Below, in pieces: positions 566-55,845 of a stretch of DNA of 64,000 nt. The stretch is taken from positions 1 to 64,000 of the forward strand of contig JAGCCQ010000050.1 of NCBI GenBank assembly GCA_017651565.1, given 5' to 3'. Position 1 is the first letter of the stretch. Each line of letters opens with the position of its first letter. The position numbers and the translations under genes are program-made. Under the pieces are notes generated by a model. It saw only the letters and a program-made list of their open reading frames with translations, did not search any database and was not told the DNA's origin. The stretch is from Bacilli bacterium (GTDB lineage: Bacteria; Bacillota_I; Bacilli_A; RFN20; CAG-826).

Positions 566-1296
566 TTATTATTAGAAAAGAAGTTAAGTGCGATGTTAAT
601 ATCTTAAAGTTTATGTATCCAACATTTGAGATAATAGATAATGATATACCGTTGTTTCCAGAAAGACCTGCAATTTATATTGGATCAACACAAAATAGAG
701 ACCTTTTTATAAAGACTTATGAAAAAGCTGATATAGATTATATTGTTGTTTCAAATACATCTAGCATTGATCTAACTGATAGAAGACAGTTAGTACAGGT
801 AAGTTTTGAAAAGTGGAATAGGTTTGTACCACAATATCTAGTTGGTTGTGGTAGAGAGAAGAAAAGAGGAAAAGGAATAGATTATGGTTTTATAGATGAG
901 TTAGACTATGAAGACTTCCTATGGGTATTTAAGCACCATTGGGTTACAGGTAAATGGGTTATAAAGAAACTACCAGACGAGAATACTTTTTTGGAGTTGA
1001 TTGAATTAATAAACCAATCAAAGATAGATTTTATAAAAAGATTTTTTGAAGTTGTTAACGATACAAGACCTTATAGAATAGAGAGTAGTTTAATGACTTT
1101 TTTATTAAGAGCAAAATATAAAAACTATAAAGGTTTAACTAGTCCAAAGTATAAGTTTACAATTAAAAAGTTTGAGGGAAAGCCTGTAGATAAGTCTTTA
1201 AATGCACTATATAACTCATTAGACACTAGCATAGATAATTATACTTTGAGGCTTTTGTATCTATTTGTAAATATACTAGACACTATTAGATCATAA
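562..1296 (+). CDS. Hypothetical protein, translationally coupled to the clamp-loader-like gene
   Basis: 244 residues; I do not recognise the family. The N-terminal third looks alpha/beta (IIIRKEV, PAIYIGST, YIVVSNTS), the centre has aromatic-rich stretches (FLWVFKHHWVTGKW) and the C-terminal third is helical and ends LYLFVNILDTIRS. The start codon overlaps the stop of the preceding delta'-like gene, so the two are probably made together. An alpha/beta N-terminus followed by a helical C-terminus next to a clamp-loader-like gene would fit another clamp-loader subunit (delta or gp62-like), but no diagnostic motif supports this. Confidence 0.5.
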   Translation: MIIIRKEVKCDVNILKFMYPTFEIIDNDIPLFPERPAIYIGSTQNRDLFIKTYEKADIDYIVVSNTSSIDLTDRRQLVQVSFEKWNRFVPQYLVGCGREKKRGKGIDYGFIDELDYEDFLWVFKHHWVTGKWVIKKLPDENTFLELIELINQSKIDFIKRFFEVVNDTRPYRIESSLMTFLLRAKYKNYKGLTSPKYKFTIKKFEGKPVDKSLNALYNSLDTSIDNYTLRLLYLFVNILDTIRS

Positions 1297-1359
1297 AAAT
1301 AGCCAAAATCTGTCAAGTTTTTATTTATTATTATAGAGAGATATTTAGGAGGAGCGATT

Positions 1360-1620
1360 ATGGTAGTATTTAGAGTAAAGTCTTCCACTGATATTAAGAA
1401 ACTTGGTGGAGCCATTTTTACTAATATAAAGAACTGTAATGAGATTGAACTGTCTTGTCTTGGTGCAGGAAGTTTAAATCAAGCAGTTAAAAGTATAATT
1501 ATTGCAAAATCTTTCGCAGCTCCTGTTGGAATAAACCTAGTTGTTGATCCTAGTTTTGACTTAACAGAAGTTGACGAACAAGAGAAAACATTAATTAAGT
1601 TAATTGTTAAAAAGATATAG
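1360..1620 (+). CDS. spoVS: SpoVS-family protein (stage V sporulation protein S)
   Basis: 86 residues, the usual length for SpoVS. The family core is clear: FRVKSSTDIKKLGGAIFTNI, then ELSCLGAGSLNQAVKSIIIA, FAAPVGINLVVDPSF and a C-terminal EKTLIKLIVKK. SpoVS is a small Alba-like-fold protein, probably nucleic-acid binding, that influences septation and spore coat assembly in Bacillus and relatives. In a phage it could modulate host sporulation or bind phage DNA. It has a strong AGGAGG RBS and sits immediately upstream of the 1695-residue head-type gene. Family identification is strong; the role in the phage is unknown. Confidence 0.85.
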   Translation: MVVFRVKSSTDIKKLGGAIFTNIKNCNEIELSCLGAGSLNQAVKSIIIAKSFAAPVGINLVVDPSFDLTEVDEQEKTLIKLIVKKI

Positions 1621-1628
1621 GAGGGTTT

Positions 1629-4600
1629 ATGAGATTAATTAATAAAAGTTTAACTGAAAGTTTATATACTAACCTTAAAGTTAGTAAAAATAAAAAAACT
1701 TTAAAAGAAGGATCTTTTGGAGAAGAAGTTGGTTTTATGTGGGACGCTGATGTTGACGCTATGAAACTAGACTTCGCAAAGCGAATCTGCTCTTATCTAG
1801 GAATTAAAGATGATGACGCAGAGTATTTTAAGTTTAATACTTTTGAACTTCATAGAGGTACAAGTTGGGTGGATAGTAACCCTTGGATGGCTGTTGAAAT
1901 TGAACTTCCTTATTATATTGTTTTATCTATAATTGAGGCTAATGCAAGAATATGTCCTTTGGCTAATAAATTAAACCGAAGTGATTATTTAAACTATTGG
2001 TCTGATGGTGGAATAGATATAGGAAGAACAAGTGGAACCAAATCATTTAAAGAGGTTTATGCTTATTTTGATTTTGAGGAGAGCCTTTCTTCTTATGATA
2101 AGAGTATTACCGATGAAGAAGTTAAGTTTATGGATAAGAACCTAGAGGAAGAAGAGGAAAAACTAGGTAAGTATGTAGCAGATGTTATAAAAGAACACTA
2201 TGACGAGTTACTAGATATTATGCTAGATAATGAGTTTATAGACGAGGAAGAATTAGAAGAGTCAGAAAAAATTACTAATACAAACAATGATTTTTATTGT
2301 GAGTATTGTTGTAATATCTTCAGTGGAGAAATGAAGGAAGACGGAAGTATGCCTGATTGTCCTAGATGTGCTAATAGAAGAGCGTATGACACTGATATAA
2401 ATATGACAGATGAAGAAAGAAATAAACCAGCTAATGCCGATGTGCGTTTACTAAAAGATGGAGATATAGGTTTATTTGATGGAAATACTGTTCTAGACGA
2501 ATTAGGTAGTGATTATGAAGGAGTACTTGCTATGTATGACCTTCTTGGATATGACATAGAAGACGAGTTTATTTGGGAAGATATAGTTGATGACGCAGAT
2601 AGTGAAAAACTTTATATAAAAAATGGAGACTTCTATTTAGATAAAGATGGAAAAACTGTTGTTTATAAAGGAAGAGACTCTGCAAACTTCCCTATTGTTT
2701 CTATTGTTAAGGGAAATAAGATAAAAGAAAGTATGTCATTAAAAGAAGAAGTAAATAATGAAATTGATAGTCACATTGAAAGTTTTAGAGGACCAGATCA
2801 TAGTGGTTACTTTGATATGGACTTGTATGCTATAACTGTAAGAAGTGACTCAAAAGAAAGATACTTCTGGGCTTATTATAATTTCTCTGGTAAGCCAACA
2901 GTATATCCAGGTTATAACCCAAGTCCAGAAGAAAAGAAGTTATTAAAACAAATGACAGGTGCAGAGGACTTTGAAGCAGGGTTAGATATTCTAGCAAATT
3001 ATATAGATAAAAATCTAGATAGATTATTAAAAGAAAAAAATAAAAAAGGTATCTTTGATGTTTCATCTATGGAAGAATTAGACGAAGGATCCTTTGATGA
3101 TTTAGACGCAGAGTATGGAAGTGTTGAAGAAGAAAACGGAAAGAAGTACTATGTTGCTGGTAGTACTCAACAAGGTTATTGTTATAAAAGTGTAGCAACA
3201 TATAAGAATAGTCCAGACGAAGTTTGCTATATTAGTGAGAGTGCCTTTGATGATAATAATGCAGTTGACGGAAAACTTCCACTAGACTATGTTGAAAAGA
3301 ATAAAAATAAGTTAATTGAGGTTGGTAGTGTATCAACACACAATTCAATTCTTGAAGAAGTTAGAAGTGCTCTTGTTTTTGATAACTATAACTATACAGA
3401 TAATTCTGGGAAAGTTATTGAAGCAAAAGATTTTGATAATGAACTTATTGAGATGTTGGCTTTAGAAGCTTTTGAAATAGTTGATTGGCAAGGTACAGGA
3501 TCATTTATTGGAGAACAAGATTATAAAGAAACTATTGAAGAGTATTATAGTCATAAACTTAATGAGAGTGTTACTGTTAAAAAACATAAAAGGTTAAGAG
3601 AGTCAGCATTACCAGACGGAGTTGAAGTTACAGAAGATGGTTATCTTGTTGTAAAAGATTTTATTTATTACTTTATAGTTGGTGTTGCAAAAATACCAAT
3701 GTATAGTGATGAAGACGATAGTGAAGGTTGGGTTGAAACAGATTTTAATATACCTTTTAAAGTTAAAGACGAAAACTATGGAGTATTACCTTCTTTAGAA
3801 ATGGCTGTTGAGTATGTTAAGTCCTATGTAGAGTCTGGAATACCAGGAACTTGTGGTGTTGTTGTTGAGTGTAAGACACCTGATTATGTAAGTGAAATGG
3901 ACGCTGACGATAAGGATAGAAATATTTACAATGGTTTTGCCGAGTGGGTAGATCCTTATGATATATATCATTATAAAGATAGTGACGGAAAAGTAGTTTA
4001 TAGTGCTTATACAGACGAAAACAGTAACTTAATTGAAACAACGAAGGATACATCAACTGATAAAGTATCAATATCTTATAGTCCTAGTCCTGAAGTTTAT
4101 GCAAATCTAATGGGGCTTAAATCTTTTGTAGAAGATAAGAGTAATAGAGAGTTATTCAAGTCAGATGGTATAGATGAAGAAGTAATTGATCTTGTTAATA
4201 ATATTGTTAAGGGTTTAAAAAGTTTTAAGTTTAAATCTAAAAATGACTTTGTATCTTCTTTAGAACATATAAATAGTTTTATTGATGAAACAAAAGAATA
4301 TTTTTACGATGGTATTGATATAGATATAAAAGAGTATGTTAATTCTGTAATAGAGTCTGCTAAAAAAGGTATAAAGGAGTCTTTTAATACCAAGGCTTTG
4401 CGTAGGGTTTTAAAAGAAACAACAGATGAAGAAATAAATAAATTAAAAGTTGAACTTAAGAATAGAGCAGAAGATTTATATCACGATGGAGATATAAGTT
4501 TTGAATTAGATGAAAAAGATCTAGATCGTTTGGCTTATAAAATAAAACTTGGTGGTTTCTTTATATCTAATAATATATTTACTGACAATAATGATGAATA

Positions 4601-6716
4601 TGAGTGGCAACAGATAAATGATTTCTTGGACGATAGTATCCGTGATTATGCAGGGGAGAAAAGTATAAGAGATAAGTACAAAGATTTAAGTGACCTATCA
4701 ACAACAAAAGACTTTAAACAATTAGCAGATAGTTTAGACGATGAGACACTAAAAAATATTCAAAAAGTATTAGCACATTACATAGATTATACAGATAAAA
4801 ATGATGACGGTGTTAAAGATATTATCGGAGAGTATACTACTCAATTTGGTAATGACTATGTAATTGATTGGTATGAAGGTTTAATGAGTACTAATGAGTT
4901 TATTAGTGAAATTAAAGATAGTGGTTACACAGTTGAACCTAGGTTTAACGAATCAGTTAAGAACCTAAAAGAAGCAAGTAAGAAAACTGAACTTACAAAG
5001 TTTGATTGGAAAGATGGTTTAGACGGCTTTGATTACTATATGGATAAGGACAAATATATTTATGCTAAATCTAAAGATAGTGGAAGACTTTATTCTTGTA
5101 CTGATGATGGAGATCCAGAAATAGAAATAGAAGATGACGAAAACTATATACTTAAGGAAGATAAAAAAACCGATCTTGAAAAAACTATTAGATCAAACAC
5201 ACAAAATAAAATAAAAAATATTAGAGACATTAAAGATAATGAGTCTGGTACTGTTGTTTTAAACTTTGAATATCTTTATGATGACGAAGGTAATACAACA
5301 GTTAAGGGTTATGATATAGTTTGTGACGATACAGGTGTTTATGATTTATTTGCAGACTATACATTATTAGGATCTAGTGGGGAAACTTTTGATTATAGAT
5401 GGAATAAAAACGATGATACATTTGATTGTAGTGTTGTTGGAAAAGATTGTTGGTTTACTCTTACAGCAGAAGAGTTTAATATTGCTAATGAGGATATAAA
5501 AGAGTCTAGTCTTAATGAAAGTGCTTTTACTTCATTTAGATCTAGCCACCAGGACGAAGGTTTTTTAGGAAGACTTTGGTTTGAAATAGATGGTAAACCT
5601 TATACAATAGATTTATTTAAGATTGATGGAGAATATAGTCTAATTTATGGCATATATATTCCAGACGAATTACAAAAGTTTGTTGATGACTACGGTGGAT
5701 ACAAAAAGTTTTTACAAGACGCTATAGACTATGTTAAAGATAGTGGTTATTTAAAAGAGTCAGACATCTTTAAACCATTTGAAATTGAATCACTTGAAGG
5801 AAAAAGTGATTACGAACTAGATGATTATGCTGATAAGTTACAACAAGAACTTAAGAGTGTTTATGAAAACGATGAGGCTAGTGCTTTAAGATATGACATA
5901 TTAGACTTACTTAATAAAAAAGAAAAAGCAAATAATAGAGCCTCTGGAAATGGTTTAAGATATAATAAGAAACTAATTGAACTTATACATAAAGCTGAAG
6001 GTTATTTAGAAGAGTCAGTTGCTCCTAAAAAACCAAAGAAAAAGAAAAAGGGAGATAAAAAGGACGAGAAACGAGTTATTATGCAACAAGGAAATGTAAC
6101 TTGTATAAAAGAAAGTAATAATAAGTTTCTAGTATTTGAAAACGAAAACGATAATGAAAAAGAATATAAAGATCAAGATACTGCTATGGCTGATTTTTTA
6201 CAAAGAGTTGGCGTTGATCCTAATAGTGAACTAACAGAGAGTGTTAAAAGATATAATTTATTTGGAGATATAGTTGTATTAGATACTGATAATAAAAAAC
6301 TTATAGTAAATGATAAAGAGTTTACATTTGATAAAATGGATGAGTTTGTTAAACAGGCTCGAGGCTCTAACAGACTATACAAGCCAATGGCACTATTACT
6401 TTACACAGATTATAAAAATGGTAAGTTAAAAAATTGGGAAAGTGAAGCAATAAATGAAAGTGCTAAAGACTTTATACCAGAATTAATTGATAAGTATGTA
6501 GAAAACTATAATAAATCGCAGAAATGGATAAGAGGTAGGCGTAGACCAAGAGAAAAACAACCAGAAGATTTCGAGTGGCGATATATGGCTGGTAACATAG
6601 ATGGTATGAAGGTTAGGGGCGAAGAAGAAATACAAATATTCGACAATAGTACGGGCGAATATTTAGGTCCACATAGTAAATATATTAATAGTGTGAGATC
6701 TGGCGATAGACACTAA
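1629..6716 (+). CDS. Giant (1695 aa) LxE-site protein, probable processed internal head protein
   Basis: The acidic 1695-residue protein begins MRLINKSLTE|S, an N-terminus nearly identical to that of the gene at 10991 and resembling T4 capsid-targeting peptides that end in an [L/I]-x-E cleavage site. About fifteen further [L/I]-x-E-[S/A/G] sites are scattered along it, for example LKEG, IKES, LDEG, LNES, LRES, LKEA, LEES, LTES and INES, often where sequence character changes. A four-cysteine zinc ribbon lies near residues 224-246 (CEYC...CPRC) and matches one in the prohead-protease fusion at 59878. A lysine-rich stretch (KKPKKKKKGDKKDEK) follows LEES near residue 1465. I infer a multi-domain polyprotein packaged in the head and cut by the prohead protease. 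No enzymatic domain is recognised. Confidence 0.6.
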   Translation: MRLINKSLTESLYTNLKVSKNKKTLKEGSFGEEVGFMWDADVDAMKLDFAKRICSYLGIKDDDAEYFKFNTFELHRGTSWVDSNPWMAVEIELPYYIVLSIIEANARICPLANKLNRSDYLNYWSDGGIDIGRTSGTKSFKEVYAYFDFEESLSSYDKSITDEEVKFMDKNLEEEEEKLGKYVADVIKEHYDELLDIMLDNEFIDEEELEESEKITNTNNDFYCEYCCNIFSGEMKEDGSMPDCPRCANRRAYDTDINMTDEERNKPANADVRLLKDGDIGLFDGNTVLDELGSDYEGVLAMYDLLGYDIEDEFIWEDIVDDADSEKLYIKNGDFYLDKDGKTVVYKGRDSANFPIVSIVKGNKIKESMSLKEEVNNEIDSHIESFRGPDHSGYFDMDLYAITVRSDSKERYFWAYYNFSGKPTVYPGYNPSPEEKKLLKQMTGAEDFEAGLDILANYIDKNLDRLLKEKNKKGIFDVSSMEELDEGSFDDLDAEYGSVEEENGKKYYVAGSTQQGYCYKSVATYKNSPDEVCYISESAFDDNNAVDGKLPLDYVEKNKNKLIEVGSVSTHNSILEEVRSALVFDNYNYTDNSGKVIEAKDFDNELIEMLALEAFEIVDWQGTGSFIGEQDYKETIEEYYSHKLNESVTVKKHKRLRESALPDGVEVTEDGYLVVKDFIYYFIVGVAKIPMYSDEDDSEGWVETDFNIPFKVKDENYGVLPSLEMAVEYVKSYVESGIPGTCGVVVECKTPDYVSEMDADDKDRNIYNGFAEWVDPYDIYHYKDSDGKVVYSAYTDENSNLIETTKDTSTDKVSISYSPSPEVYANLMGLKSFVEDKSNRELFKSDGIDEEVIDLVNNIVKGLKSFKFKSKNDFVSSLEHINSFIDETKEYFYDGIDIDIKEYVNSVIESAKKGIKESFNTKALRRVLKETTDEEINKLKVELKNRAEDLYHDGDISFELDEKDLDRLAYKIKLGGFFISNNIFTDNNDEYEWQQINDFLDDSIRDYAGEKSIRDKYKDLSDLSTTKDFKQLADSLDDETLKNIQKVLAHYIDYTDKNDDGVKDIIGEYTTQFGNDYVIDWYEGLMSTNEFISEIKDSGYTVEPRFNESVKNLKEASKKTELTKFDWKDGLDGFDYYMDKDKYIYAKSKDSGRLYSCTDDGDPEIEIEDDENYILKEDKKTDLEKTIRSNTQNKIKNIRDIKDNESGTVVLNFEYLYDDEGNTTVKGYDIVCDDTGVYDLFADYTLLGSSGETFDYRWNKNDDTFDCSVVGKDCWFTLTAEEFNIANEDIKESSLNESAFTSFRSSHQDEGFLGRLWFEIDGKPYTIDLFKIDGEYSLIYGIYIPDELQKFVDDYGGYKKFLQDAIDYVKDSGYLKESDIFKPFEIESLEGKSDYELDDYADKLQQELKSVYENDEASALRYDILDLLNKKEKANNRASGNGLRYNKKLIELIHKAEGYLEESVAPKKPKKKKKGDKKDEKRVIMQQGNVTCIKESNNKFLVFENENDNEKEYKDQDTAMADFLQRVGVDPNSELTESVKRYNLFGDIVVLDTDNKKLIVNDKEFTFDKMDEFVKQARGSNRLYKPMALLLYTDYKNGKLKNWESEAINESAKDFIPELIDKYVENYNKSQKWIRGRRRPREKQPEDFEWRYMAGNIDGMKVRGEEEIQIFDNSTGEYLGPHSKYINSVRSGDRH

Positions 6717-7920: not shown

Positions 7921-8208
7921 ATGAGAAATAGTGATGTTGAAGTTGTATCGACAAAAGATTTAAGTGGTCTTATGATCGGTTATCAAGCAGGGGTAAATAG
8001 AATAGTTATTGTTACAAAAGACGGAGAGAAGTTAAGAAGAAACTTGGCTGTTAAAGGTTTAAATATCTTAAGAGCCCCTGGAGAGTCTGGATGTAACTTT
8101 AGTTATTATAATTATGATGACGGACAACTTCATATAATAAATATGAAATATGTTGATAAGATACAATTATATAGAGATAAAGAATTAGTAGGAGAGATTG
8201 TAGAATAA
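7921..8208 (+). CDS. Hypothetical protein
   Basis: 95 residues, not recognised. It appears beta-rich, with alternating hydrophobics (NRIVIVTKDG, DGQLHIINM, KIQLYRDKELVGEIVE), suggesting a small barrel or sandwich. It has no N-terminal LxE site. An AGGAGG RBS precedes the ATG and the gene is directly followed by another AGGAGG for the next one, so it is part of a tight transcription unit. Confidence 0.5.
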   Translation: MRNSDVEVVSTKDLSGLMIGYQAGVNRIVIVTKDGEKLRRNLAVKGLNILRAPGESGCNFSYYNYDDGQLHIINMKYVDKIQLYRDKELVGEIVE

Positions 8209-8220
8209 GGAGGTAGTGTT

Positions 8221-10989
8221 ATGAATATTTATGAAAGTGTTAGAACTAATCTAAATGAAGTTAAAAAAATAAAAAACGATAAAAGCCTATTACAAAAAGT
8301 TTTAGATACTGCTGAAAACCTTGGTTGGACTTATAGTGAAGTTAATTATGCTGGAGACGAAAAAGGTTATGAGTTTTATCAATACAGCCCAGCAGGAGAA
8401 GATTTTAGTTTTTCTTCTTGTTATGGTAGCGAAAGTTTATCAGATGATGAAAAAGGAAGAAACTTAATCAAGGATATAGTTGATTATGCTAATGACTTTG
8501 ATACAAACGAACACGCTGGTATGTTATACAATGCAGGACAAGAAGGTTTTGAAGGCGTACCAGATTTAGATATACTTGTTGATGACGCAAAAGATATTGA
8601 TAATATGTTACAAGATCTAGCAAATGAACTTGAAAAGATTAATGATGTTATGAACGAAAGTTACACATATTTTTGGCAAGATGATATTGAAGAAGTTGAT
8701 TATTCTGAAGATAATGACGAGATTTGGTATGCTGTTGCTAGTAATATGTGTGAAAAGGAACCAGAAGAATATGGAGACGATCCAACAGAAGTAATGAGCG
8801 ATATAATTTCTATTTGGAAGATAGAGAAGAGAAGCCGTTTATATAAATACCTATTAAAGTGGTATGGATCTGAAGAAAAACTTTTAGATAATGTTAGAGA
8901 TGTTTATGAAACAGATAATGCTATTTATTTCGTAACAGGTTGTGGTTATTCAATCTTTTCTGCAGACTTACTTGGTGGTACTGCTGATGGTAATGCAGGA
9001 AGAGAGTTTGACGCTATGGTTAGACAGGAAGAAGGACTTAATGAAGGAGTGCTTGAACCAAAATACTCATCAAGAAAGAGTTTCTATGGTAAAGCTGGTA
9101 CTGATAGCACAGCTGAAGGTAATGTTTTAACAAGTTATGGAACACCTATAATGAGAATTAAAGATGGAAATGTTGAAATGTTATGTGGCGAGTGGGCTTT
9201 AACAAGTACAACATTAAGACATATAAGAGAGTTTATGCAACAAAACGGTCTTGAACCTTTATCTAAAAGACAATTAATTGATCTAATTAATAAAAAAGGT
9301 TTAAGAGAAAGTAAAAAAGATAAAGAGTCAGATAAACTTTTTAAGGCTTTAGTTAATTCAGATAAGTTTATTAAACAAGTTGAAAAAGAAAAAGGTTTAA
9401 AAAACTTAACTTCAAAATCAGGAGAAGTAATTGATAGAGCAGAGGAGTATATTCAAGGCGACTATGAAGGTGCTCTTAAGTTTGCTGGTTTAAAGGAAAG
9501 TAAAGAAGATAAAGAATATAAGAAACAAGTTGAAGATGAAGGTAAGATGGCTGACGCTATACACCAAGAGTTTAAGAAATCTAAAAATAAAACTAGAAAA
9601 GAATTAGAAAAGATTTGTAAGAAGCATAATGTTGGTGTTGAAGATTATCTATACGCTGACGGTTATCAAGGAAACTTTGACGAATTAGTAAATGAATTAA
9701 AAGAGTCAGACAGTTTTAACTATAATGGTTACACATTTAGACCTGTAGGTAACTTTAAATCAAATAAAAACTTTGCTAGTTTTATAAATAGAGATATAGA
9801 TAGTAATATTAATAATAATTTTAAATATGACGATTTCTATAAAGTAGCACCAGAGGTTGATCTATTTACAGTTGATGAGTTAGATAATGCTTTGGTAATG
9901 CCTGGATCAAATGGTTTCTTTAGATATAGAGGAACTGAAGACGATTATATTCCAATGGAAAACCTTAAGAGTAAAGCAGAGTTAAACACTGTTGATAACC
10001 TAGGGTATATTGGAGACGAATACGATAAAGAGATAGTTGATGATATACTTGGTAGTGAAGATTATGGAAGTATAGCACATAAAGTTGGTTGGGCTCTTAA
10101 TAGGTATCAATTATATAATTTAGCAACACTTTATATTAATGACGAAAGCACAAGAGAAAAAATTGAAGAATTACTTACTGATATTAATTATCATAGTGAG
10201 TGCTCTGACCTAATGGATAACCCAGAAGCATTTAGAGATAGTCTTATGACAAGTTTATCTGAAAGTGCTACTGTGGTAGGTAAAAAGATATTAAAAGAAG
10301 CACCAACAGAAGAACAAGAAGACGAAGAGTTTGTACTTGCTGATGGTGGTATTAGTGATAATAGTCCAGAAAAGATGACAGCAGAAGAGACAGGCGAGGA
10401 AATGTCAGACACAGAATATGAGGAAGAAGCAGAGGATGACGCTAAAGATATAGTTAAAGACGATATTGAAGAACCGTTCTATGCTACCGTTCCTGAATAT
10501 GATGAGTTAAGAGAAGTACTTGTTGATCTAGACTATAGATTATTACTAATAAATGACGATATAGTTTGTATTGGAAGACTTAATGGACCAGATATAGAAA
10601 TACTTACATCTAACCACGAAAGTAGTGACGATATAAATAAATCAGAGTCAAATGATAAATCAGACGAAATAGAAGAAAGAGCTGAAGAGAACGAAGAAGA
10701 TAGTTATGAATACTTATGGATCAAAGCACCAAAGGGCTCTTTAGAAGATTTCTTAAAACAAGTTAATGTATTATATCTATCTCCTGAAATGAGTGAAGAA
10801 GATAAAGAACAATACGCTGGTCTTGAGGCTAATCACGAAAGCGTAATGAATTATCTAATGAACGAATTACCAGAGGATAAGAGAAAAGATAAAAAGGAAG
10901 AAGAAACTGAAGAAGAAGTGGAAGAGGAAACAGTAGAAGAACCTACTGAAGAAGTATCTACTGAAACTGAAGTTGAGGAGGAAAAATAG
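8221..10989 (+). CDS. Large (922 aa) LxE-site protein, probable internal head protein
   Basis: It begins MNIYESVRTNLNEV, a CTS-like helix. Residues of roughly 20-145 form a domain (LLQKVLDTAENLGW ... FDTNEHAGMLYNAG ... LVDDAKDIDNMLQDLANEL) that I recall from uncharacterised gut Firmicutes proteins. Candidate cleavage sites follow: MNES, LNEG, LRES, LKES (twice), LSES and LKEA. The C-terminal quarter is extremely acidic, ending in a Glu/Val-rich tail. The chain therefore alternates short folded domains, LxE sites and charged linkers like the 1695- and 1664-residue proteins. Function of individual domains is unknown; processing by the prohead protease is inferred. Confidence 0.55.
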   Translation: MNIYESVRTNLNEVKKIKNDKSLLQKVLDTAENLGWTYSEVNYAGDEKGYEFYQYSPAGEDFSFSSCYGSESLSDDEKGRNLIKDIVDYANDFDTNEHAGMLYNAGQEGFEGVPDLDILVDDAKDIDNMLQDLANELEKINDVMNESYTYFWQDDIEEVDYSEDNDEIWYAVASNMCEKEPEEYGDDPTEVMSDIISIWKIEKRSRLYKYLLKWYGSEEKLLDNVRDVYETDNAIYFVTGCGYSIFSADLLGGTADGNAGREFDAMVRQEEGLNEGVLEPKYSSRKSFYGKAGTDSTAEGNVLTSYGTPIMRIKDGNVEMLCGEWALTSTTLRHIREFMQQNGLEPLSKRQLIDLINKKGLRESKKDKESDKLFKALVNSDKFIKQVEKEKGLKNLTSKSGEVIDRAEEYIQGDYEGALKFAGLKESKEDKEYKKQVEDEGKMADAIHQEFKKSKNKTRKELEKICKKHNVGVEDYLYADGYQGNFDELVNELKESDSFNYNGYTFRPVGNFKSNKNFASFINRDIDSNINNNFKYDDFYKVAPEVDLFTVDELDNALVMPGSNGFFRYRGTEDDYIPMENLKSKAELNTVDNLGYIGDEYDKEIVDDILGSEDYGSIAHKVGWALNRYQLYNLATLYINDESTREKIEELLTDINYHSECSDLMDNPEAFRDSLMTSLSESATVVGKKILKEAPTEEQEDEEFVLADGGISDNSPEKMTAEETGEEMSDTEYEEEAEDDAKDIVKDDIEEPFYATVPEYDELREVLVDLDYRLLLINDDIVCIGRLNGPDIEILTSNHESSDDINKSESNDKSDEIEERAEENEEDSYEYLWIKAPKGSLEDFLKQVNVLYLSPEMSEEDKEQYAGLEANHESVMNYLMNELPEDKRKDKKEEETEEEVEEETVEEPTEEVSTETEVEEEK

Positions 10990-14446: not shown

Positions 14447-14824
14447 ATGGATAAAAGGTTATGTTATATTGAAAGAGTAGGAGATTGGATGGATGTATTT
14501 CAGTTATATTTTACTGATAATCTAGTAGATCAGTGGGGAGACGATTGGAACGATACACCAGCCGTAAGTAATGCTGAATCTCCTTATGAAGACGAGACAC
14601 ATCATATTGAGTCTATGTTTATAAAATTAGATTATTCTTACAACTTTATCTTTGGAGGAGAAAGTTATTCAGTTGAACTTTTAAATCAAAGAATTGCTTG
14701 TTGGTTTGTAATAGAAAAGGAAAAAGAAAAAACACTGATACAGGGTGGGGAAACAATGGAAGAGGTTGTTACAAGTCTAGCCAAGATTGGAATACCTTGT
14801 TTTATACAATATAAAGGAGAATAG
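14447..14824 (+). CDS. Hypothetical protein
   Basis: 125 residues, not assigned to a family. The chain is aromatic-rich and looks alpha/beta (LCYIERVGDWMDVFQLYFTD, YSYNFIFGGESYSVELLNQR, GIPCFIQYKGE). The start has an AAGGAGG RBS just after the long hairpin. Its stop is 2 nt before the chaperonin start, so it is probably cotranscribed with groEL. Confidence 0.5.
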   Translation: MDKRLCYIERVGDWMDVFQLYFTDNLVDQWGDDWNDTPAVSNAESPYEDETHHIESMFIKLDYSYNFIFGGESYSVELLNQRIACWFVIEKEKEKTLIQGGETMEEVVTSLAKIGIPCFIQYKGE

Positions 14825-14826
14825 AA

Positions 14827-16266
14827 ATGCAAGTATTAAGTGAAAAAGAACCGTTAGAGGTTTATGTTAATGCAAGTGAAATAGCTAATAGAGCCGTAGC
14901 ACACACGCTAGGACCTGCAGGAACAAATACAGCAGTAGTTAATAAAAAAGGAAGTCACGATATAATTAATGATGGTTATACAATACTTTCTAAACTAACT
15001 AGTCTTGATCCAGCAGAAGCAGAGGCACTTGAGACTTTAAAGTTAGCCTCTTTTGAAACAAATAGAAGAGCAGGAGATGGAACAACATCAACAACGATAC
15101 TAACTTATAGGTTGTTGTCGGGTGCAAAGAAGTACCTGGAGGATAATAATATAACTAAAGTTAAGTTAAGAGATGTTATAGAAGAGGCAAGAGATTTCTA
15201 TATAGATTTACTTCACTCTTCTTTCTCTAATAAGATTGAAGATAAGGACTATGAGAATATAGCGAAAGTATCTTTAGGTAGTGTTAAGTATGCCTCAACT
15301 ATTGCTGAAGCATATCGTTTCTTACCCGAAGGGTTAAGACCTAGTGTTGTAAGAAGTGATATTCAAGATGTGATGATTGAAAAGAAAGACGGTGTTGTAC
15401 TAGATAAAGTTGAGTTAATAGTACCAGCCGATATGTTTGATAAAGGTCCAAAGGAATATGTGGACTCTGATGTATACTTAATATATGATAAGTTAGATAG
15501 GTGGAACCAAATATCTCCACTTGTAGAGCAAATCATAAGATTAAAAAGAAAAGCAGTTTTATTCTATAATGAATTATCTATGGATATATTACAAAATATT
15601 CAATATCAAATAGTTAAAGGTTATGCTGATATAATACCAATAAGGCTTGGTTGTCTTGGTGTAAACACAAGAAGTGTTATGAACCAATTAGCACTTTATA
15701 CTAATACTACTTTAATAGATGGTGTTGAAGTAAGACTTCCAAAAGCTTTATCTCAAATAAATATAGGAAAGATTGATTACTTATTACTTTCTCCTGATAC
15801 AGTAATTTTAAATAATAAAGATTTTACTGATATAGATAAGATAACATTACCAACTAGAAGTTGTGTTATTCGTGTCGGAGGAATAAATAACTCTGCTATG
15901 GAAGAGAATTATAGAAGAATTGAAGACGCAGTTAATAGTTTGGGTAATGCAATAGAAAGTGGTATCTCCGTAGGTGCTGGTGTAACTTATCAAAGACTTG
16001 CTGGAGTTGACGAGAAGATACCAGAGTTTATAAGAGAGTCAATGGAAAGTATTTATAGACAAATAATTAAGAATATTACGGGTAGTGATGTTATTGATGA
16101 AGATACTGATGGTCTTATTATTGATAAAAGTGGAGAATACACCCTAGTAGAGAAGTTAGAGATATTTGACGCAACTAAAGTTATAGAGCAAGTTATCTTA
16201 AATGCTTTTAGTCTAGTGGCTCAAATAGTAACAACTGATATTATGATTATAGAAAATGTCAGATAA
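14827..16266 (+). CDS. groEL: GroEL-like chaperonin (HSP60 family), divergent phage type
   Basis: 479 residues, compared with about 540 for bacterial GroEL. Equatorial-domain motifs are present: HTLGPAGTN (residues 26-34), INDGYTILSKL, AGDGTTSTT (82-90), GAGVTYQRL near 383, and a C-terminal FDATKVIEQVILNAFSLVAQ matching the end of GroEL's second equatorial segment. The apical and intermediate region (about 130-350) is shortened and strongly diverged, and the Gly-Gly-Met tail is missing. AGDGTT carries the aspartate needed for ATP hydrolysis, so activity is plausible. It may fold the capsid protein together with the GroES-like protein at 17069. Phage GroELs are known from some jumbo phages such as EL. 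Confidence 0.85.
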   Translation: MQVLSEKEPLEVYVNASEIANRAVAHTLGPAGTNTAVVNKKGSHDIINDGYTILSKLTSLDPAEAEALETLKLASFETNRRAGDGTTSTTILTYRLLSGAKKYLEDNNITKVKLRDVIEEARDFYIDLLHSSFSNKIEDKDYENIAKVSLGSVKYASTIAEAYRFLPEGLRPSVVRSDIQDVMIEKKDGVVLDKVELIVPADMFDKGPKEYVDSDVYLIYDKLDRWNQISPLVEQIIRLKRKAVLFYNELSMDILQNIQYQIVKGYADIIPIRLGCLGVNTRSVMNQLALYTNTTLIDGVEVRLPKALSQINIGKIDYLLLSPDTVILNNKDFTDIDKITLPTRSCVIRVGGINNSAMEENYRRIEDAVNSLGNAIESGISVGAGVTYQRLAGVDEKIPEFIRESMESIYRQIIKNITGSDVIDEDTDGLIIDKSGEYTLVEKLEIFDATKVIEQVILNAFSLVAQIVTTDIMIIENVR

Positions 16267-16302
16267 TGGTTGGTAATTTTTAACAAAATGAAAAAATTGG
16301 TA

Positions 16303-16330
16303 AAAGTTTGGGACAAGCCCAAACTTTTTA
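16303..16330 (+). terminator. Intrinsic terminator after groEL
   Basis: AAAGTTTGGG pairs with CCCAAACTTTTT around a short ACAAG loop (16303-16330). The right-hand T-rich end runs directly into the TGTTATAAT promoter element. Confidence 0.75.
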
Positions 16331-16339
16331 TGTTATAAT
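16331..16339 (+). promoter_or_regulatory. Extended -10 promoter TGTTATAAT
   Basis: TG-T-TATAAT at 16331-16339 is a perfect extended -10 element, and GGGACA (16310-16315), 18 bp upstream, could serve as a weak -35 overlapping the terminator stem. Transcripts would have a leader of about 80 nt before the ATG at 16426. That leader contains an AAGGAGG (16367-16373) with no start codon at useful distance, and CACACAGT/ACTGTTGTG segments that could pair around it. Confidence 0.5.
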
Positions 16340-16425
16340 TTTTTTAGACACACAGTTAGGCATAGGAAGGAGGTTATAGTAGATACTGTTGTGCTGTTAA
16401 GTTTGTATGATATAGGAGACTAAAT

Positions 16426-17097
16426 ATGCTAGAAGAACTTAATAATGCAAGAGTGGAGGGGTTAACTTTTATAGAGTTTCAGCCAAGACTAATGGACTTT
16501 GTGTCAAGGTTTGTTAGAGATAAGTTTAAAAGTTTTTCATATCTTAAGTATTACTTTGGAATTAGTCCTGAAGATGTTGAAAGCCAAGTATATGTTAAGT
16601 TATGTAATAGGAAGACAGCTGATACTTTAAGTAATTTAGAAAGATATTTTATATCTGCTAGTAAATGTGGGTTATCGTATCTATCTAATGTGTTAAGAAG
16701 GGTAGTTAGTAGTGTATTTATTGATATTAAGAGGTCAGTTGATAAAGGTAAGTATTCACACACATTATTTAGTGAAGAGGTACCTGATGTAATTGATACT
16801 TATGATTACTTTCAAGATATTTCATATAGAGATATTTTAGATCTAGTCCCAGATCTTTATGTCGAGGAACTCTATATGAAGACACCACGATATTATGGAG
16901 TATATAACAGTAAGATACTACTTGAGTTATTACTAGATGGGTATTCAATAAAGGAAATATCTAAAATGGTTTTCTTGAAAGATGGTAGTAATGTTAATAG
17001 TAATTATATTAGTAGCGACTTAAGTAACCTAAAGAAGAGGTATATAGTAGAAATAGGGAGATGTGTTAATGGATATAAAAGTAAAACTAAAGAATAA
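16426..17097 (+). CDS. Sigma-factor-like / transcription factor protein
   Basis: 223 residues. The first half resembles sigma-70 region 2: GISPEDVESQVYVKLCNRK followed by YLSNVLRRVVSSVFIDIKRS, as in ECF sigmas (a helix entering 'dlvqevflk' and a later 'yl..i.rn...d..R'). The C-terminal third has a helix-turn-helix-like stretch, LLELLLDGYSIKEISKMVFL, in the place of region 4. It may redirect host RNA polymerase to phage promoters. A second, shorter sigma-like protein is at 31672. It lies between groEL and a GroES-like gene and overlaps the latter by 29 nt. The call is by pattern only. Confidence 0.5.
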   Translation: MLEELNNARVEGLTFIEFQPRLMDFVSRFVRDKFKSFSYLKYYFGISPEDVESQVYVKLCNRKTADTLSNLERYFISASKCGLSYLSNVLRRVVSSVFIDIKRSVDKGKYSHTLFSEEVPDVIDTYDYFQDISYRDILDLVPDLYVEELYMKTPRYYGVYNSKILLELLLDGYSIKEISKMVFLKDGSNVNSNYISSDLSNLKKRYIVEIGRCVNGYKSKTKE

Positions 17098-17350
17098 AAA
17101 TATCATTGTATCAGAGTTAACAGATGACTTATATGTTGATAATATTGTATTAATGTATGATGATGAAAGTCCTTATATGTTTTGTAAGGTAAAGAGTGTT
17201 GACTCAAGTATTACTGATATTGAACCAGGAGATATTCTTGTTGTAAGAAGATATGCAAAAGAAGAGTTTATCTCTAATTTATATTTTGTTGCAGAACAAG
17301 ATGTAAGATGTATAATTAAAGAAGAAGAGTATGAGAGATTAATAAGTTAA
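17069..17350 (+). CDS. groES: GroES-like co-chaperonin
   Basis: 93 residues, within the GroES (about 95) to T4 gp31 (111) size range. Features in order: IKVKLKNKNIIVSEL (the N-terminal strand of GroES), YVDNIVLMYDDE in the place of the GroES mobile loop with its GIVL motif, IEPGDILVVRRYAKEEF matching the 'kvGD.V.f..y.g.e' strand, and FVAEQDVRCIIKEEE matching 'il.e.DilAii'. I choose the ATG at 17069, eight bases after GGGAG, over a GTG two codons upstream. It overlaps the sigma-like gene by 29 nt. With the GroEL homologue at 14827 the phage seems to encode its own chaperonin pair. Confidence 0.65.
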   Translation: MDIKVKLKNKNIIVSELTDDLYVDNIVLMYDDESPYMFCKVKSVDSSITDIEPGDILVVRRYAKEEFISNLYFVAEQDVRCIIKEEEYERLIS

Positions 17351-44107: not shown

Positions 44108-47100
44108 ATGAAGATACTAAAAGAAAACACAATTATAAAGACTTTAAAAGAAAGTGATGTTAATGCTGAAGGTTTAACTCTAATGGAAGTTATAGATAAA
44201 CTATATGGTGGCTCTTTTGATTGTGATGTTTCAGATGTAGACATAGATATTTTAGTTTGTTTTAGTTACGATAAATATGTACTAGAAGATGATGAGTATT
44301 CTCGTTTCTTAAGAGTACTTGCTGAAAGAACTAAAGTTGTTAAACAAATAACAGGCGAATATGGAAACACTTATGTCTGTGATTTTTCTTCTGTATTTAA
44401 GCCTTACAATGATGAGTTAATGAATATTTTTAATATGAATAACTCCGAGTTTGACGATAGCGAGGCTTACTATGAAGCAGTTGTTAACCTAGAGGCATTA
44501 ATTCCAGGTTATGCTGGAGAAAGAACTTATAAAGAATTAAGTGATATACTAGAAGGAAAAGGGGAAAAACTAGAACCTGTTAATCAATTCAATCATAAGT
44601 CTTTAGACGAGGCTATTGATTTAAGTAAAAATAGGGCTATGGCTGGTGCTTTAGATAAAAATAAGATTGCAAAGTTTTTAAAGGACGCTGTAAATGATTT
44701 ACAAACAACTAGTTATACTTGTAGTCAGTATATTTTAGATCCAGAACTTGCTATCTATGTTGGTTGGTCTGCTGGATGGGGAGATGAAATAAGAGACGAT
44801 ATAATTCAAGATAAGGAAAACCCTGATTATGGACTAACGGCTGGTATCAGAATTAGAGCAACTTATTGGGCTGACTTTGAATATTTAGATAGTCCTTATT
44901 TTAAAGAAGATGGAGAGTACTATGACGCTGACTTATCAATGAAACCTAATATGACAGATAAAGACTATATTAAAGACGCAGAATATCTTATAAAGTGTTA
45001 TAAAGAAATTAGAAAAGGTTTAGATAAAGGTACTTTAATATATGAGTCAAAGAAGGTTAAAGGAAAGAAAAAACTTAATGAGTCTAAAAAAGTATTAAAA
45101 GAAGGAAAAGAAAAAAAGAAATCAAAATTATCTTCTAATGATATTTTTGATGGTGTAAACTTTGAGTTTAAAAGTGGTAGTGATACTTTTTATATGTATG
45201 CTTCTTGGTATGACAACTTTGACTTTGAAGAAGAGATAGAGAGTGGAAATATACCAGAGGACGCAAACGAAGAAGATTGGGGAGCAATATATTTTGATAT
45301 ATATGATACAAATGGAGAAAACATTGACGGTGGCTTAATGGTTACTGATGAAGATGATTTTACCGTTGAAAGTCTTTGCTCCGATTTAGCTGATCTTGCT
45401 GGATACTCTTCAGTAACAAATGCTAAATTAATAGATAGTATCCCAAATAAAGATGGTGGTAAAGGTGCTAAAGTAACTTTATCTGATCTAGATAGTGAAG
45501 GGAAGAATTATACATTTACAGGAGATAGAGGTAACGGAGAAGAAGAGATGATACTTAACTTCTTCACTTCTGGTAATGCTGATGGTATAGATTATACTTT
45601 CTATACTAAAGATGGATCTGAAGTTGACGGTGGCGTTCTAGAAGTAGATAGTGAAAAAACTTGGAACTCTCCAGAGGAAGTTGCAAAAGAAATTATAGAT
45701 TTCCAAGGAATTAAAAATAAAGGAGATCTTAAAAAGTTAAACGATGGCTCTATAGAAGACATTTTAGAGGAATCAGTTAAGTCAAGTAAAAAAGTATTAA
45801 AAGAAGCAAATAGAACAAAACTAATTAAAAGTTATCTTGATTGTAAGTTAGAAAGAGATGGTAGTGGTTATGACATTGGTACTTCTTTTAAACAAGGAGA
45901 AACAGTAGAAGATTTTATTAAAGACAACCACATTTCTATAGACAAGCCACTTTATCTGTTAAACAGATCTTTAAGAAATAACGGAATTAAACCTGTTCGT
46001 GCTTGGTTAGATGATGAAGAAACATATAATAAGTTTAAAAATTATGTTGATTGGCAATTAAGAGATGGTGCTATAGACGATCCAAACTATGTTATGACTT
46101 TATCTGATGAAGAGTATAATAACTTATTAGTAAACTCTTGGATGAAGGATGAAGAAATGCGTGACGCATTTGAAGAGTTTGGACTAGAAGAGTCAATGGA
46201 TCTTGTTGGATCTCATCCTGGTTATAATGACTTTAAAGGTAAAGATCAATTAAAGAAAGCATTAGTTTCTTCTATTACTGATTGGATAGACGATAATTAC
46301 GGTAGCACTGAAGCTGATGAACCTTGTTACAATATGAAGAAATTAGTTGATACCATAATTGACAGTGGTTGCTTAAGACAAAAAGATTTAAAAACAGTTA
46401 TTTATGGTGTTATTATTAGTTGGATAGATGATAACTATGGTAGTACTGAAGCCGATGAGCCTTGTTATGATATGAAGAAGTTAACTGATGTTATTGTAAA
46501 AACAGTACAATCAATGAAGTTAAAAGAGTCAGACGAAGGTATTATAAACCCAGACGAAAAAGAATATTATGATGATACATTATATTTAGTTGGTTTATAC
46601 CCTGGTGTTGGTTACGAACTTGCAACATTTAAAGTTTATGCTAACAGTGAGGAAGGAGCACTTGAAACTGTAGTTGCTTATTGTGAAGAAAAAGGATATT
46701 TTGGTTTAATTACACCAATTAATGATTTAGAAAAAGAAGTAGAAGAAACTTATAAAGATGAGTTTGCTGAATATCAAGCAAAAAACCCTGAAAGTGATTC
46801 TTTTGATTTTATTACAAATTATCTAAATTACATTTATATTGACGCAACTCCAGAAGGTGCTAGTAAGCCATATTTTATTGACGGACAAGCAGTTTGTCAT
46901 CCAATAGATAAAATAAATGAAAGTATTGATTATGATAAAATTGTTGACGAGGGTATGACCGTTAAAGAACTAGACGATATAGCACAATGGTTATATGACT
47001 ATAGAAGAGAAGAGTGGGACAAGTTTACTGATATTGAGTTAATTGAATTAGCAAAATTATGTCAGTTAACAGACGAGAACCCATTTGGAAGAAGTTATGA

Positions 47101-49102
47101 TGATGAAGTTTTTGATGAGATGGATCGAAGAGGTTTATCTTTAAATAAAAATGAAGCCGTAACAACAAGTGAACCAAAAAGTGCAACTCAAACAACTAAT
47201 TCTAAAAAGGTTAAAGATTATCTAAATTATGAGTTACAGGACGATGATACTGAAACAGGTGGTGTATCTTTTAATGGAGAAACTGTTGAAGATTTTATCA
47301 AAGACGCAGATATAAAAGACGATGATGACCTAGATAAACTTAATAAGGCTCTAGTAAGTTGTGGAATAAAACCTATTACTGAAGGGTATGAGGGTAATTA
47401 TCGTGGAGATGATTATTGGGACTTAAGTGATAGTTATACTAATGGTAATATAACAGAGGAAGAACTAGCACAAAGTCTATTAGATATGTATGACTCAAGA
47501 ATAGAAGCTGTAAAAGCATTTAAAGAGATAACTGATAATAAAGCATTTCCCAGAAAAGAAAAATCAACAGGATCAGATATAAAAGAGATTACTGATGAAG
47601 AGATGGGCTCTTATATAGAAGCCTGGGATAATGGAGACGAGTTACCATTTGAAGGAGATAGATTTATTACTGTTGGAGATGGAGACGGTCCTATTCGTGG
47701 TGTTGGTGGTAATGGTATTATTGTTGCATTAGATAACAGAACAGGCGATTGTTGGGTTGAAGAGTTTGATAGTAAAGATAAAGCAATATCGTGGTTGAAC
47801 GATGAGTTTAATGTTGGCGATGTTATTAATGAAGAAGAAAAAAGAAGAATAGACGAAAGTTTTAATATAAAAAGTGCTTATGTTTATGAAATAAATCTAA
47901 TTAATATAATTGTAACTAACGGTCAATTTAGTGGATATTCTTACGAAGATATTAAAAAGGTATTAGAACAGAACATTAATTCCTTTACTAAAGATAAAGC
48001 AGACGATATTGAACTTAATGATGGTAAATGGTTAATATTTGATGGTGTAAAAGGAATAGATAGATATAGATTTTATCAGTTTACAGTAGAAAAGCGTATG
48101 GTTGATCCAAAAGATATAAAACCATTTCTAGAAGCAAAAGATGAGAGTTATGATGAGTATAGAAATTGGTGGGGCAGTAATATACAAACAGCAGTACCAA
48201 AAGAAGCACAAAAGATAATAGCAGATCGTTATAGTGAAGACGAAATGATAGACTTACTTAAAGATTATGAATCTGCTGGGTTAGACCGTGTTGCTTTTAG
48301 AGATTCAATGGGTAATGGTAAGTTGAGAAATGAGTGGCTAATTATAAATGATATTTATATGATGGGTTTAACAGACGAAGATAAATATCCTAGATTGCAT
48401 AAAGTTGCAAAAGAAATATACGATAAAAATAATACTGAAAAAGCAAAAGCAGAAGAACTTAACGGTGGAGGCAAAATAGAAAACGCCGTTAAGTTAGCCT
48501 CTGACGATTATAGAATACACTTCGATAATAGAACACCATTTGATATGTTCTATGCACCTGAAGAGGATGAATACCTAGAAGATTATGATTATGTTAAGTA
48601 TTACAATAAGATTTTAAATAATTTAGGTTATGCTAATATTTTAATAAATCGTAGTCCTATGGTTACTTATGTATCTGATGGAAAGCAGGAGATGGACTTT
48701 GGTAGTGGTTATGTCATAGATTTAAGAGCCTGGGATACATTTGAAGATGTTGTTAATAATACTAAAGATATTCTTGCAATATTAGAGGGGGAAGGATCTT
48801 TAAATGAATCTGTGGAAGATTTAGAAAAGAAACCCTTAAGTGTTAACAAGTTATTTAAGATCTGGTGTGATCTAATGATGGATATTGAAGATTTTGCTGA
48901 TAAGTGGAACGGTTGCAAAGGAACACCAGACGAGGTAAGAAGACAAAGAATACAATTAGTTAACCCAGCTGTTGTTGAGTTTGTTAGTGAAAACTATGAC
49001 TCAATTAAAGCACAATGGGACAGTTTTTATGATATTATGGAAGATAATAATTTCCACACGCCTTTAATAGCGATTGAAATGGAAATGAATAAATATAAAT
49101 AA
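44108..49102 (+). CDS. Giant (1664 aa) LxE-site protein, probable processed internal head protein
   Basis: It begins MKILKENTIIKTLKE|S. At least a dozen more candidate sites follow: LDEA, IYES, LNES, LKEG, LEES, LKEA, LEES, LKES, INES, ITEG, IDES and LNES. A basic linker (SKKVKGKKKLNESKKVLKEG) near residues 316-335 is flanked by sites. Two internal repeats are clear: a domain containing GETVEDFIKD near residues 600 and 1060, and a tandem unit containing WIDDNYGSTEADEPCY near 725 and 771. The protein is acidic overall. It lies between portal and capsid genes. It looks like a string of shuffled small domains; no enzyme motif is recognised. Confidence 0.6.
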   Translation: MKILKENTIIKTLKESDVNAEGLTLMEVIDKLYGGSFDCDVSDVDIDILVCFSYDKYVLEDDEYSRFLRVLAERTKVVKQITGEYGNTYVCDFSSVFKPYNDELMNIFNMNNSEFDDSEAYYEAVVNLEALIPGYAGERTYKELSDILEGKGEKLEPVNQFNHKSLDEAIDLSKNRAMAGALDKNKIAKFLKDAVNDLQTTSYTCSQYILDPELAIYVGWSAGWGDEIRDDIIQDKENPDYGLTAGIRIRATYWADFEYLDSPYFKEDGEYYDADLSMKPNMTDKDYIKDAEYLIKCYKEIRKGLDKGTLIYESKKVKGKKKLNESKKVLKEGKEKKKSKLSSNDIFDGVNFEFKSGSDTFYMYASWYDNFDFEEEIESGNIPEDANEEDWGAIYFDIYDTNGENIDGGLMVTDEDDFTVESLCSDLADLAGYSSVTNAKLIDSIPNKDGGKGAKVTLSDLDSEGKNYTFTGDRGNGEEEMILNFFTSGNADGIDYTFYTKDGSEVDGGVLEVDSEKTWNSPEEVAKEIIDFQGIKNKGDLKKLNDGSIEDILEESVKSSKKVLKEANRTKLIKSYLDCKLERDGSGYDIGTSFKQGETVEDFIKDNHISIDKPLYLLNRSLRNNGIKPVRAWLDDEETYNKFKNYVDWQLRDGAIDDPNYVMTLSDEEYNNLLVNSWMKDEEMRDAFEEFGLEESMDLVGSHPGYNDFKGKDQLKKALVSSITDWIDDNYGSTEADEPCYNMKKLVDTIIDSGCLRQKDLKTVIYGVIISWIDDNYGSTEADEPCYDMKKLTDVIVKTVQSMKLKESDEGIINPDEKEYYDDTLYLVGLYPGVGYELATFKVYANSEEGALETVVAYCEEKGYFGLITPINDLEKEVEETYKDEFAEYQAKNPESDSFDFITNYLNYIYIDATPEGASKPYFIDGQAVCHPIDKINESIDYDKIVDEGMTVKELDDIAQWLYDYRREEWDKFTDIELIELAKLCQLTDENPFGRSYDDEVFDEMDRRGLSLNKNEAVTTSEPKSATQTTNSKKVKDYLNYELQDDDTETGGVSFNGETVEDFIKDADIKDDDDLDKLNKALVSCGIKPITEGYEGNYRGDDYWDLSDSYTNGNITEEELAQSLLDMYDSRIEAVKAFKEITDNKAFPRKEKSTGSDIKEITDEEMGSYIEAWDNGDELPFEGDRFITVGDGDGPIRGVGGNGIIVALDNRTGDCWVEEFDSKDKAISWLNDEFNVGDVINEEEKRRIDESFNIKSAYVYEINLINIIVTNGQFSGYSYEDIKKVLEQNINSFTKDKADDIELNDGKWLIFDGVKGIDRYRFYQFTVEKRMVDPKDIKPFLEAKDESYDEYRNWWGSNIQTAVPKEAQKIIADRYSEDEMIDLLKDYESAGLDRVAFRDSMGNGKLRNEWLIINDIYMMGLTDEDKYPRLHKVAKEIYDKNNTEKAKAEELNGGGKIENAVKLASDDYRIHFDNRTPFDMFYAPEEDEYLEDYDYVKYYNKILNNLGYANILINRSPMVTYVSDGKQEMDFGSGYVIDLRAWDTFEDVVNNTKDILAILEGEGSLNESVEDLEKKPLSVNKLFKIWCDLMMDIEDFADKWNGCKGTPDEVRRQRIQLVNPAVVEFVSENYDSIKAQWDSFYDIMEDNNFHTPLIAIEMEMNKYK
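46281..46484 (+). repeat. Tandem intragenic duplication
   Basis: The coding sequence for WIDDNYGSTEADEPCYNMKK recurs 138 nt (46 codons) downstream as WIDDNYGSTEADEPCYDMKK. Many differences at DNA level are third-position changes, so the duplication is old enough to have drifted while the protein stayed conserved. Confidence 0.85.
49094..49101 (+). promoter_or_regulatory. T4-like late promoter TATAAATA
   Basis: Exact TATAAATA at 49094-49101, overlapping the stop of the giant gene and 20 nt before the ATG at 49114, the same spacing as at 42132 and 53311. The element coincides with a Tyr-Lys-stop coding end, so selection as a promoter is not certain. Confidence 0.4.
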
Positions 49103-54798: not shown

Positions 54799-55845
54799 AT
54801 GGTAGATGTTATTATTCCTGCATATAATAGTCAGGATACAATTATTAGAACATTAAGCAGTATTGCTATGCAATTAGATAGGGAAAACATTATGGTTACG
54901 ATTGTTAACGATGGTGGAGAACCTTATACAGATATAATAAAAATATTTGAACCTATTTTAAAAATAAAAGAAATAGGTTATAAAGAAAACAAAGGACCAG
55001 GTTATGCAAGACAGTATGGTATTGATAATACTAATAATGATTACATAATCTTTATAGACGCAGACGATACATTTTTAGAGGCTTGTTCTGTCTGGCTTCT
55101 AACAAATGCGATAAAAGAGTCAAATGCGAAATTAGTTATTAGTCCGTTCGTCCAAATAGGTAAGCACTGCGAACAAAGTGTTATCCCTGCTAACCTAACT
55201 TGGATATTCGGACATATTTATCAAAGAAACTTTTTAACAAAACATAATATAAGATTTACACCAACAAGATCAAATGAAGATGTTGGGTTTAATACAATGG
55301 TATATAATATAGCATTTCATTATTTTGGAGATAATGGTGGTAAACTTTTAACCACTCCAACTTATGAGTGGCATTATAACGAAGCCTCTATTACAAGAAG
55401 AGGTAAAGATGAGTATGAGTATGGTATCTGTACTCCAGGTTATATTTATAACTTACATAATGCTTTCGATGTTTGTATTAGAGAAGGTGTTACATTAAAA
55501 GAAATAGCAAAAGCTGTTCTTGAGTCATTATTTAGTTGTTTTGTTTACTATAATGTTGCTCTTGCTAAAGAAGTACCAGCACAAACATTATGGTCTATAG
55601 AAGAATTAAGCCGTAAGTTTTACTATGATTATTATAATCAAGTACAAGACTTTATATCAAAAGACGAGTATAAAGAGATCTATACTCAAGCGTATAATAG
55701 TAAAGGAGCACACTTACAAGGAATAATACCTAAAATGACTTTAGAAGGGTTTATTGAATTAATGTTTAGTAAAGAAGTTAATGAAAAAGATTACGCACAA
55801 TTTGAAAAAGAAGTACAAAGTGTAGCAGAAGAAGAAAGAAATTAA
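54799..55845 (+). CDS. Family 2 (GT-A) glycosyltransferase
   Basis: 348 residues. VDVIIPAYNSQDTIIRTLSS, MVTIVNDGG, ENKGPGYARQYGIDNTNNDY and IIFIDADDTFLE give the GT2 nucleotide-binding fold with its metal-binding DADD (about residues 92-95). The C-terminal half (YEWHYNEASITRRGKDEYE and helices) would bind the acceptor. The substrate could be a capsid protein, phage DNA or host surface glycan. No sugar-nucleotide pathway is nearby. It has no membrane segment and no CTS-like N-terminus. Confidence 0.85.
   Translation: MVDVIIPAYNSQDTIIRTLSSIAMQLDRENIMVTIVNDGGEPYTDIIKIFEPILKIKEIGYKENKGPGYARQYGIDNTNNDYIIFIDADDTFLEACSVWLLTNAIKESNAKLVISPFVQIGKHCEQSVIPANLTWIFGHIYQRNFLTKHNIRFTPTRSNEDVGFNTMVYNIAFHYFGDNGGKLLTTPTYEWHYNEASITRRGKDEYEYGICTPGYIYNLHNAFDVCIREGVTLKEIAKAVLESLFSCFVYYNVALAKEVPAQTLWSIEELSRKFYYDYYNQVQDFISKDEYKEIYTQAYNSKGAHLQGIIPKMTLEGFIELMFSKEVNEKDYAQFEKEVQSVAEEERN

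Follow-up and report, generated by a model that had tools for sequence, protein, structure and literature searches.

A divergent phage-encoded Cpn60 and a linked GroES-fold protein in a phage binned with Bacilli that appear to lack GroE

Bacteriophage T4 encodes a GroES-fold co-chaperonin, gp31, which has no roof loops and is essential for the folding of gp23 (PMC6318259); it encodes no Cpn60, and that of the host is used. Gp146 of phage EL is a divergent GroEL without a known GroES; it reportedly does not interact functionally with E. coli GroES, and the possibility that EL has a distant GroES was left open by its authors, who also state that GroEL and GroES occur together in some phages (PMC7185714). 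Such pairs are present in the records of Flavobacterium phage immuto, Cellulophaga phage Calle_1 and Bacteroides phage DAC16; in each the GroES can be identified from its sequence and lies ahead of the GroEL, with the two genes adjacent in immuto and DAC16 and one gene apart in Calle_1. We note that both members of the DAC16 pair (positions 1167–3066 of the record) are annotated as hypothetical proteins. A sequence-only reading of the DNA described here had set its pair of chaperonin-like genes against T4 and EL as though a phage with both were a departure; given the pairs above, it is not new for a phage to carry GroEL and GroES together. What is new is a very divergent lineage, a lid that is missed by sequence searches, a conserved block of three genes, and an association with bacteria that apparently lack GroE. 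A limited search of the open literature found no account of chaperonins encoded by phages of GroE-less hosts, a result that is only weak evidence that none exists.

The window, the whole stretch of DNA analysed, comprises bases 1–64,000 of a 116,171-bp contig (C42) in an incomplete metagenome-assembled genome (G000; 1.58 Mb, 74% complete). An exact direct repeat of 141 bp is common to the two ends of the contig, which therefore most likely represents an entire phage genome (about 116,030 bp), probably circularly permuted or end-redundant, that was binned with the bacterial MAG. Nearly all of the phage genes called lie on the + strand, and they include those for a portal, a head maturation protease, a UvsX-like recombinase, a clamp loader and a major head protein of the T4 gp23 family (62601–63956, + strand; PHROG major head protein, 1.4e-51); the terminase match is weak. 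The major head protein is 36–39% identical to the capsid proteins of phages LIS04, SP-15 and GXN1. Phage tRNA genes, sought as a link to a host, were not found. Among the other genes are two giant open reading frames, one (1629–6716, 1695 residues) without any PHROG match and one (44108–49102, 1664 residues) matching only PHROG families of unknown function. An FtsK/SpoIIIE-like protein (56402–57940; E 2.4e-100) and a GtrB-like glycosyltransferase (54799–55845) are encoded amid the structural genes.

The chaperonin gene (14827–16266, + strand) encodes a 479-residue protein that matches the Pfam Cpn60 family over its full length (PF00118, E 6.2e-34, residues 22–475) as well as the PHROG family 'chaperonin groEL' (7.9e-54), and the identification of a shortened phage GroEL in the sequence-only reading is borne out, as are its coordinates for all three genes of the block (the others at 16426–17097 and 17069–17350). 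The best NCBIfam models are those of GroEL, scoring above the thermosome and CCT, and by this sequence comparison the protein is assigned to the group I chaperonins and not to group II. Its score against the canonical GroEL equivalog TIGR02348 is 105 bits, compared to a curated cut-off of 582, and on sequence it thus counts among the chaperonins without being a canonical GroEL. It differs from EL gp146 in its shorter length and in having a linked GroES-fold partner. Compared to E. coli GroEL about 27 apical-domain residues and the C-terminal GGM tail are absent in the alignment; an equatorial hairpin is missing from five of the seven phage Cpn60s compared, and is present in the window protein. 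ATP binding and hydrolysis look intact, since each of the seven phage proteins retains the ATP-site residues T30, G32, P33, D52, D87, T89, T90, D398 and D495 (E. coli GroEL numbering). The apical region is divergent, as had been proposed: of the residues through which E. coli GroEL binds its substrates and GroES, the equivalents of Y199, Y203, L234 and V263 are largely replaced in the phage proteins, with F204 and L259 retained. In a phylogenetic tree the window Cpn60 and its relatives form a fully supported clade on a very long stem, apart from both the bacterial and the other phage Cpn60s (including those of immuto, Calle_1 and DAC16), and the window protein is 22–29% identical to the Cpn60s of those host-family members that possess GroEL. 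Assembly into a seven-membered or double ring would follow the GroEL pattern.

The 93-residue product of the third gene (17069–17350, + strand) is far less readily recognised. Searched alone against Pfam, NCBIfam, PHROG, the PDB and phage proteins it has no significant match, and AlphaFold gives a poor model from the single sequence. Scoring 134 phage open reading frames with a GroES HMM ranked it second, and 32 of 4936 shuffled sequences scored as high, results that are only suggestive; the frame ranked first (112435–112893) was dropped as a candidate lid, its match being limited to a 28-residue stretch. These observations, and the lack of functional interaction of EL with E. coli GroES (PMC7185714), would accommodate a reading in which the protein is a small beta-barrel of some other function and the Cpn60 works without a lid, as is thought for EL gp146. 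We consider this very unlikely in view of the predicted structure, the profile comparisons and the constant linkage of the gene to Cpn60. With five homologues added (an alignment of six rows) AlphaFold yields a confident model (pLDDT 91.9, pTM 0.81), for which all of the top 20 PDB places in a Foldseek search are taken by Cpn10 or gp31 chains (best E 1.5e-3), and which has 18 matches below E 1e-3 among viral models, each named one being a GroES or chaperonin entry. Structural alignment with VIA-align gives Z 9.3 with two Cpn10 chains (1p3h_A, rmsd 5.1, 85 residues aligned; 1wnr_G, rmsd 3.5, 73 residues) and Z 8.3 with T4 gp31 (1g31, rmsd 4.2, 80 residues), whereas the GroES-like domains found in dehydrogenases do not exceed 6.5. 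A structure model without the GroES beta barrel had been named as the outcome that would count against a GroES-like protein here; in the model obtained the barrel is present. Independently of structure, a profile of eight lid family members aligns with the GroES profile in hhalign (score 31.9, probability 74%, E 2.7e-5), above all 60 column-shuffled controls, which score at most 20.4. We conclude from the model that the 93-residue protein carries a GroES beta barrel.

The reach of sequence methods in this family is nonetheless short. A PDB profile search with the lid family alignment found no GroES by sequence, and hhalign of the family against one GroES sequence was unsuccessful, whereas profile against profile succeeded. 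Because none of six family members passes the Pfam Cpn10 model (PF00166), we classify the lid as a GroES-fold co-chaperonin and not as a PF00166 member. Its candidate mobile loop (residues 17–35; 17117–17173, + strand), placed by alignment with GroES, is similar to the GroES loop in position and length, with I26-V27-L28 at the place of GroES I25-V26-L27; the IVL triplet varies among the relatives, in which a YDDSSPYM motif following the loop is conserved. The region corresponding to the GroES roof loops is short in this protein, a point of likeness with T4 gp31, which it also resembles in its very low identity to GroES. Docking of the loop on Cpn60, and assembly of the lid as a heptamer, are putative and follow from the GroES alignment. 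Searches for further homologues of the lid across 224 family genomes gave weak matches at chance level, mostly within long frames. A match in the IMG/VR record G363 was also rejected, as it sits inside a 663-residue frame and G363 has another, recognisable GroES.

The two genes are separated by one other, in an arrangement that differs from bacterial groESL, with which it shares a Cpn60 and a Cpn10-like protein as barrel and lid, by the reversed gene order and the extra gene. The last 29 bases of this middle gene (16426–17097, + strand; 223 residues) are shared with the beginning of the lid gene. Its product diverges fast (14–31% identity among relatives), and no reliable match emerged from comparison with family libraries, sigma models or structures; the description of the gene as sigma-like is not upheld, the sole sigma match being a weak one (E 0.018) in a single relative. 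Two bases upstream of Cpn60 lies a gene for a 125-residue protein (14447–14824, + strand); of the relatives, just the closest has a homologue at this position. A terminator-like hairpin (16302–16328, + strand), identified by consensus scan, is located 3′ of the Cpn60 gene and is followed by TATAAT at 16334–16339, ahead of the middle gene; because these elements separate the Cpn60 and middle genes, transcription of the lid may be separate from that of the barrel. In the same scan terminator-like sites exceed expectation (5, compared to 1.4 expected) and promoter-like sites are not above chance.

Related phages were located in IMG/VR by a scan with a capsid protein alignment. Six records hold both a homologue of the 93-residue protein and a Cpn60, the latter with 41–75% identity over its best segment, and all eight related contigs inspected, representing seven distinct phages, have the order Cpn60, a gene for 228–315 residues, and the GroES-like gene; Cpn60 identity to the window protein ranges from 39 to 75% among these relatives. 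Separate scans of IMG/VR with the lid and Cpn60 alignments returned the same phages save one record, which was missed by the lid scan and whose proteins are identical to those of another record. A scan of GTDB species genomes revealed a Cpn60 of the window type in three more bins, the uncultured Erysipelotrichaceae MAG RUG12194 and two Bacilli MAGs from goat duodenum with near-identical contigs. In one relative, IMG/VR 3300021399_000137 (8090–9453, − strand), the Cpn60 frame is split into 279 and 128 residues with the lid gene open, which reflects either decay or a sequencing error. That split frame is the kind of evidence expected if the block were in decay, or were captured cargo that does nothing for the phage, a reading that we regard as scarcely credible given the open frames and identical ATP-site residues maintained in seven phage proteins at identities down to 39%. 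The linkage in eight contigs, and the distance of both proteins from the bacterial type, are instead consistent with the earlier suggestion of a private pair for a phage substrate, the members of which may have co-evolved.

The distribution of GroE among the presumptive hosts is uneven. To our knowledge GroE is nearly universal in bacteria and is absent mainly from Mollicutes-like lineages. Among 58 genomes around G000, GroEL and GroES are both present in 19 and both absent from the rest, with the sole exception of G000, in which the only Cpn60 is that of the phage. Within the host family 6 of 34 genomes have both proteins and 28 have neither, the latter including G000 and the two other genomes of its genus (86% and 91% complete); this pattern suggests repeated loss or scattered return. 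The three further bins with related phages likewise contain no Cpn60 but that of the phage and no Cpn10 over the cut-off, and the host lineage seems to be without GroE altogether. Loss of GroE from most Mollicutes has been described (PMC5810989).

Several caveats attach to the association with a GroE-less host: the phage is assigned to its host by metagenomic binning, which is no proof of host; the agreement in base composition between phage and bin is partly circular, as bins are themselves made by composition; the completeness of G000 is 74%; and GroES is in any case lacking from about half of the class as sampled. The pair could be real and the true host nevertheless have its own GroE, with the phage system as a specialised stand-in that serves one or a few phage clients. 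Such pairs are carried by phages of Flavobacterium, Cellulophaga and Bacteroides, and these bacteria are expected to have GroE (of the three genera, only Bacteroides ihuae was among the controls in our GroE survey). However, host GroE is absent from all four bins with phages of this clade and from both congeneric genomes, and the relatives that carry just a lid infect GroE-positive genera, and we consider a host with its own GroE unlikely.

The reading that we favour, and hold to be probable, is that the phage carries a self-sufficient GroE system, a barrel and lid that fold phage proteins in GroE-less Bacilli. An ATP-driven ring of the phage Cpn60 and the GroES-fold lid would together make up a complete GroE machine, in which the mobile loop of the lid would dock on the apical domains of Cpn60 and close the chamber, although the replacement of several GroEL apical contact residues in the phage protein counts against this. 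Phage proteins would fold within the closed chamber. The T4 gp23-like major head protein is the prime candidate client, because it belongs to the gp23 family and gp31 is essential for gp23 folding in T4; the capsid protein had been proposed as the substrate from the sequence, and its family makes that plausible, with its folding by the pair presumed by analogy with T4. The system would be needed where the host Bacilli of this phage clade had lost groEL and groES, and the clade probably carries its own barrel and lid because the bacteria it infects have lost the cell's own version.

Capsid relatives of the phage offer a comparison. Bacillus phage SP-15 and Listeria phage LIS04, whose major capsid proteins are 38–39% identical to that of the window phage, encode a GroES (E 3e-13 and 5e-11, respectively) but no Cpn60, and the IMG/VR record G363 also has a recognisable GroES and no Cpn60. 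This pattern fits a lid alone in cells that have a GroEL to offer and both proteins in cells that do not; relatives whose hosts are GroE-positive would carry a lid only, or neither gene, and borrow the host barrel as T4 does. Streptococcus phage GXN1, which has neither GroES nor Cpn60, stands against this scheme, as its gp23-like capsid protein is left without a phage lid, and the scheme does not explain it. For the wider proposal, that GroE function occurs in GroE-less cells only during infection, by way of the private machine of this phage clade, with relatives in GroE-positive hosts carrying only the lid, we judge the case to be evenly balanced.

If the favoured reading is true, then some phage proteins need a chaperonin even where the cell itself can do without one, and the pair is a naturally reduced two-part machine with which to test the parts of Cpn60 that are dispensable. 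Because co-chaperonins can be missed by sequence searches, phages believed to have GroEL alone, EL among them, merit a search for a lid by fold. An 83-residue frame in the Bacilli genome G302 (contig C42, 25570–25806) is a very divergent Cpn10-like sequence detected by the GroES HMM (E 1.4e-7). Lastly, Cellulophaga phage phi14:2, which carries a GroEL, encodes an uncharacterised protein (UniProt S0A2F3) that matches the lid model with E 5e-3, and on this structural match phi14:2 may hold an unannotated lid too.
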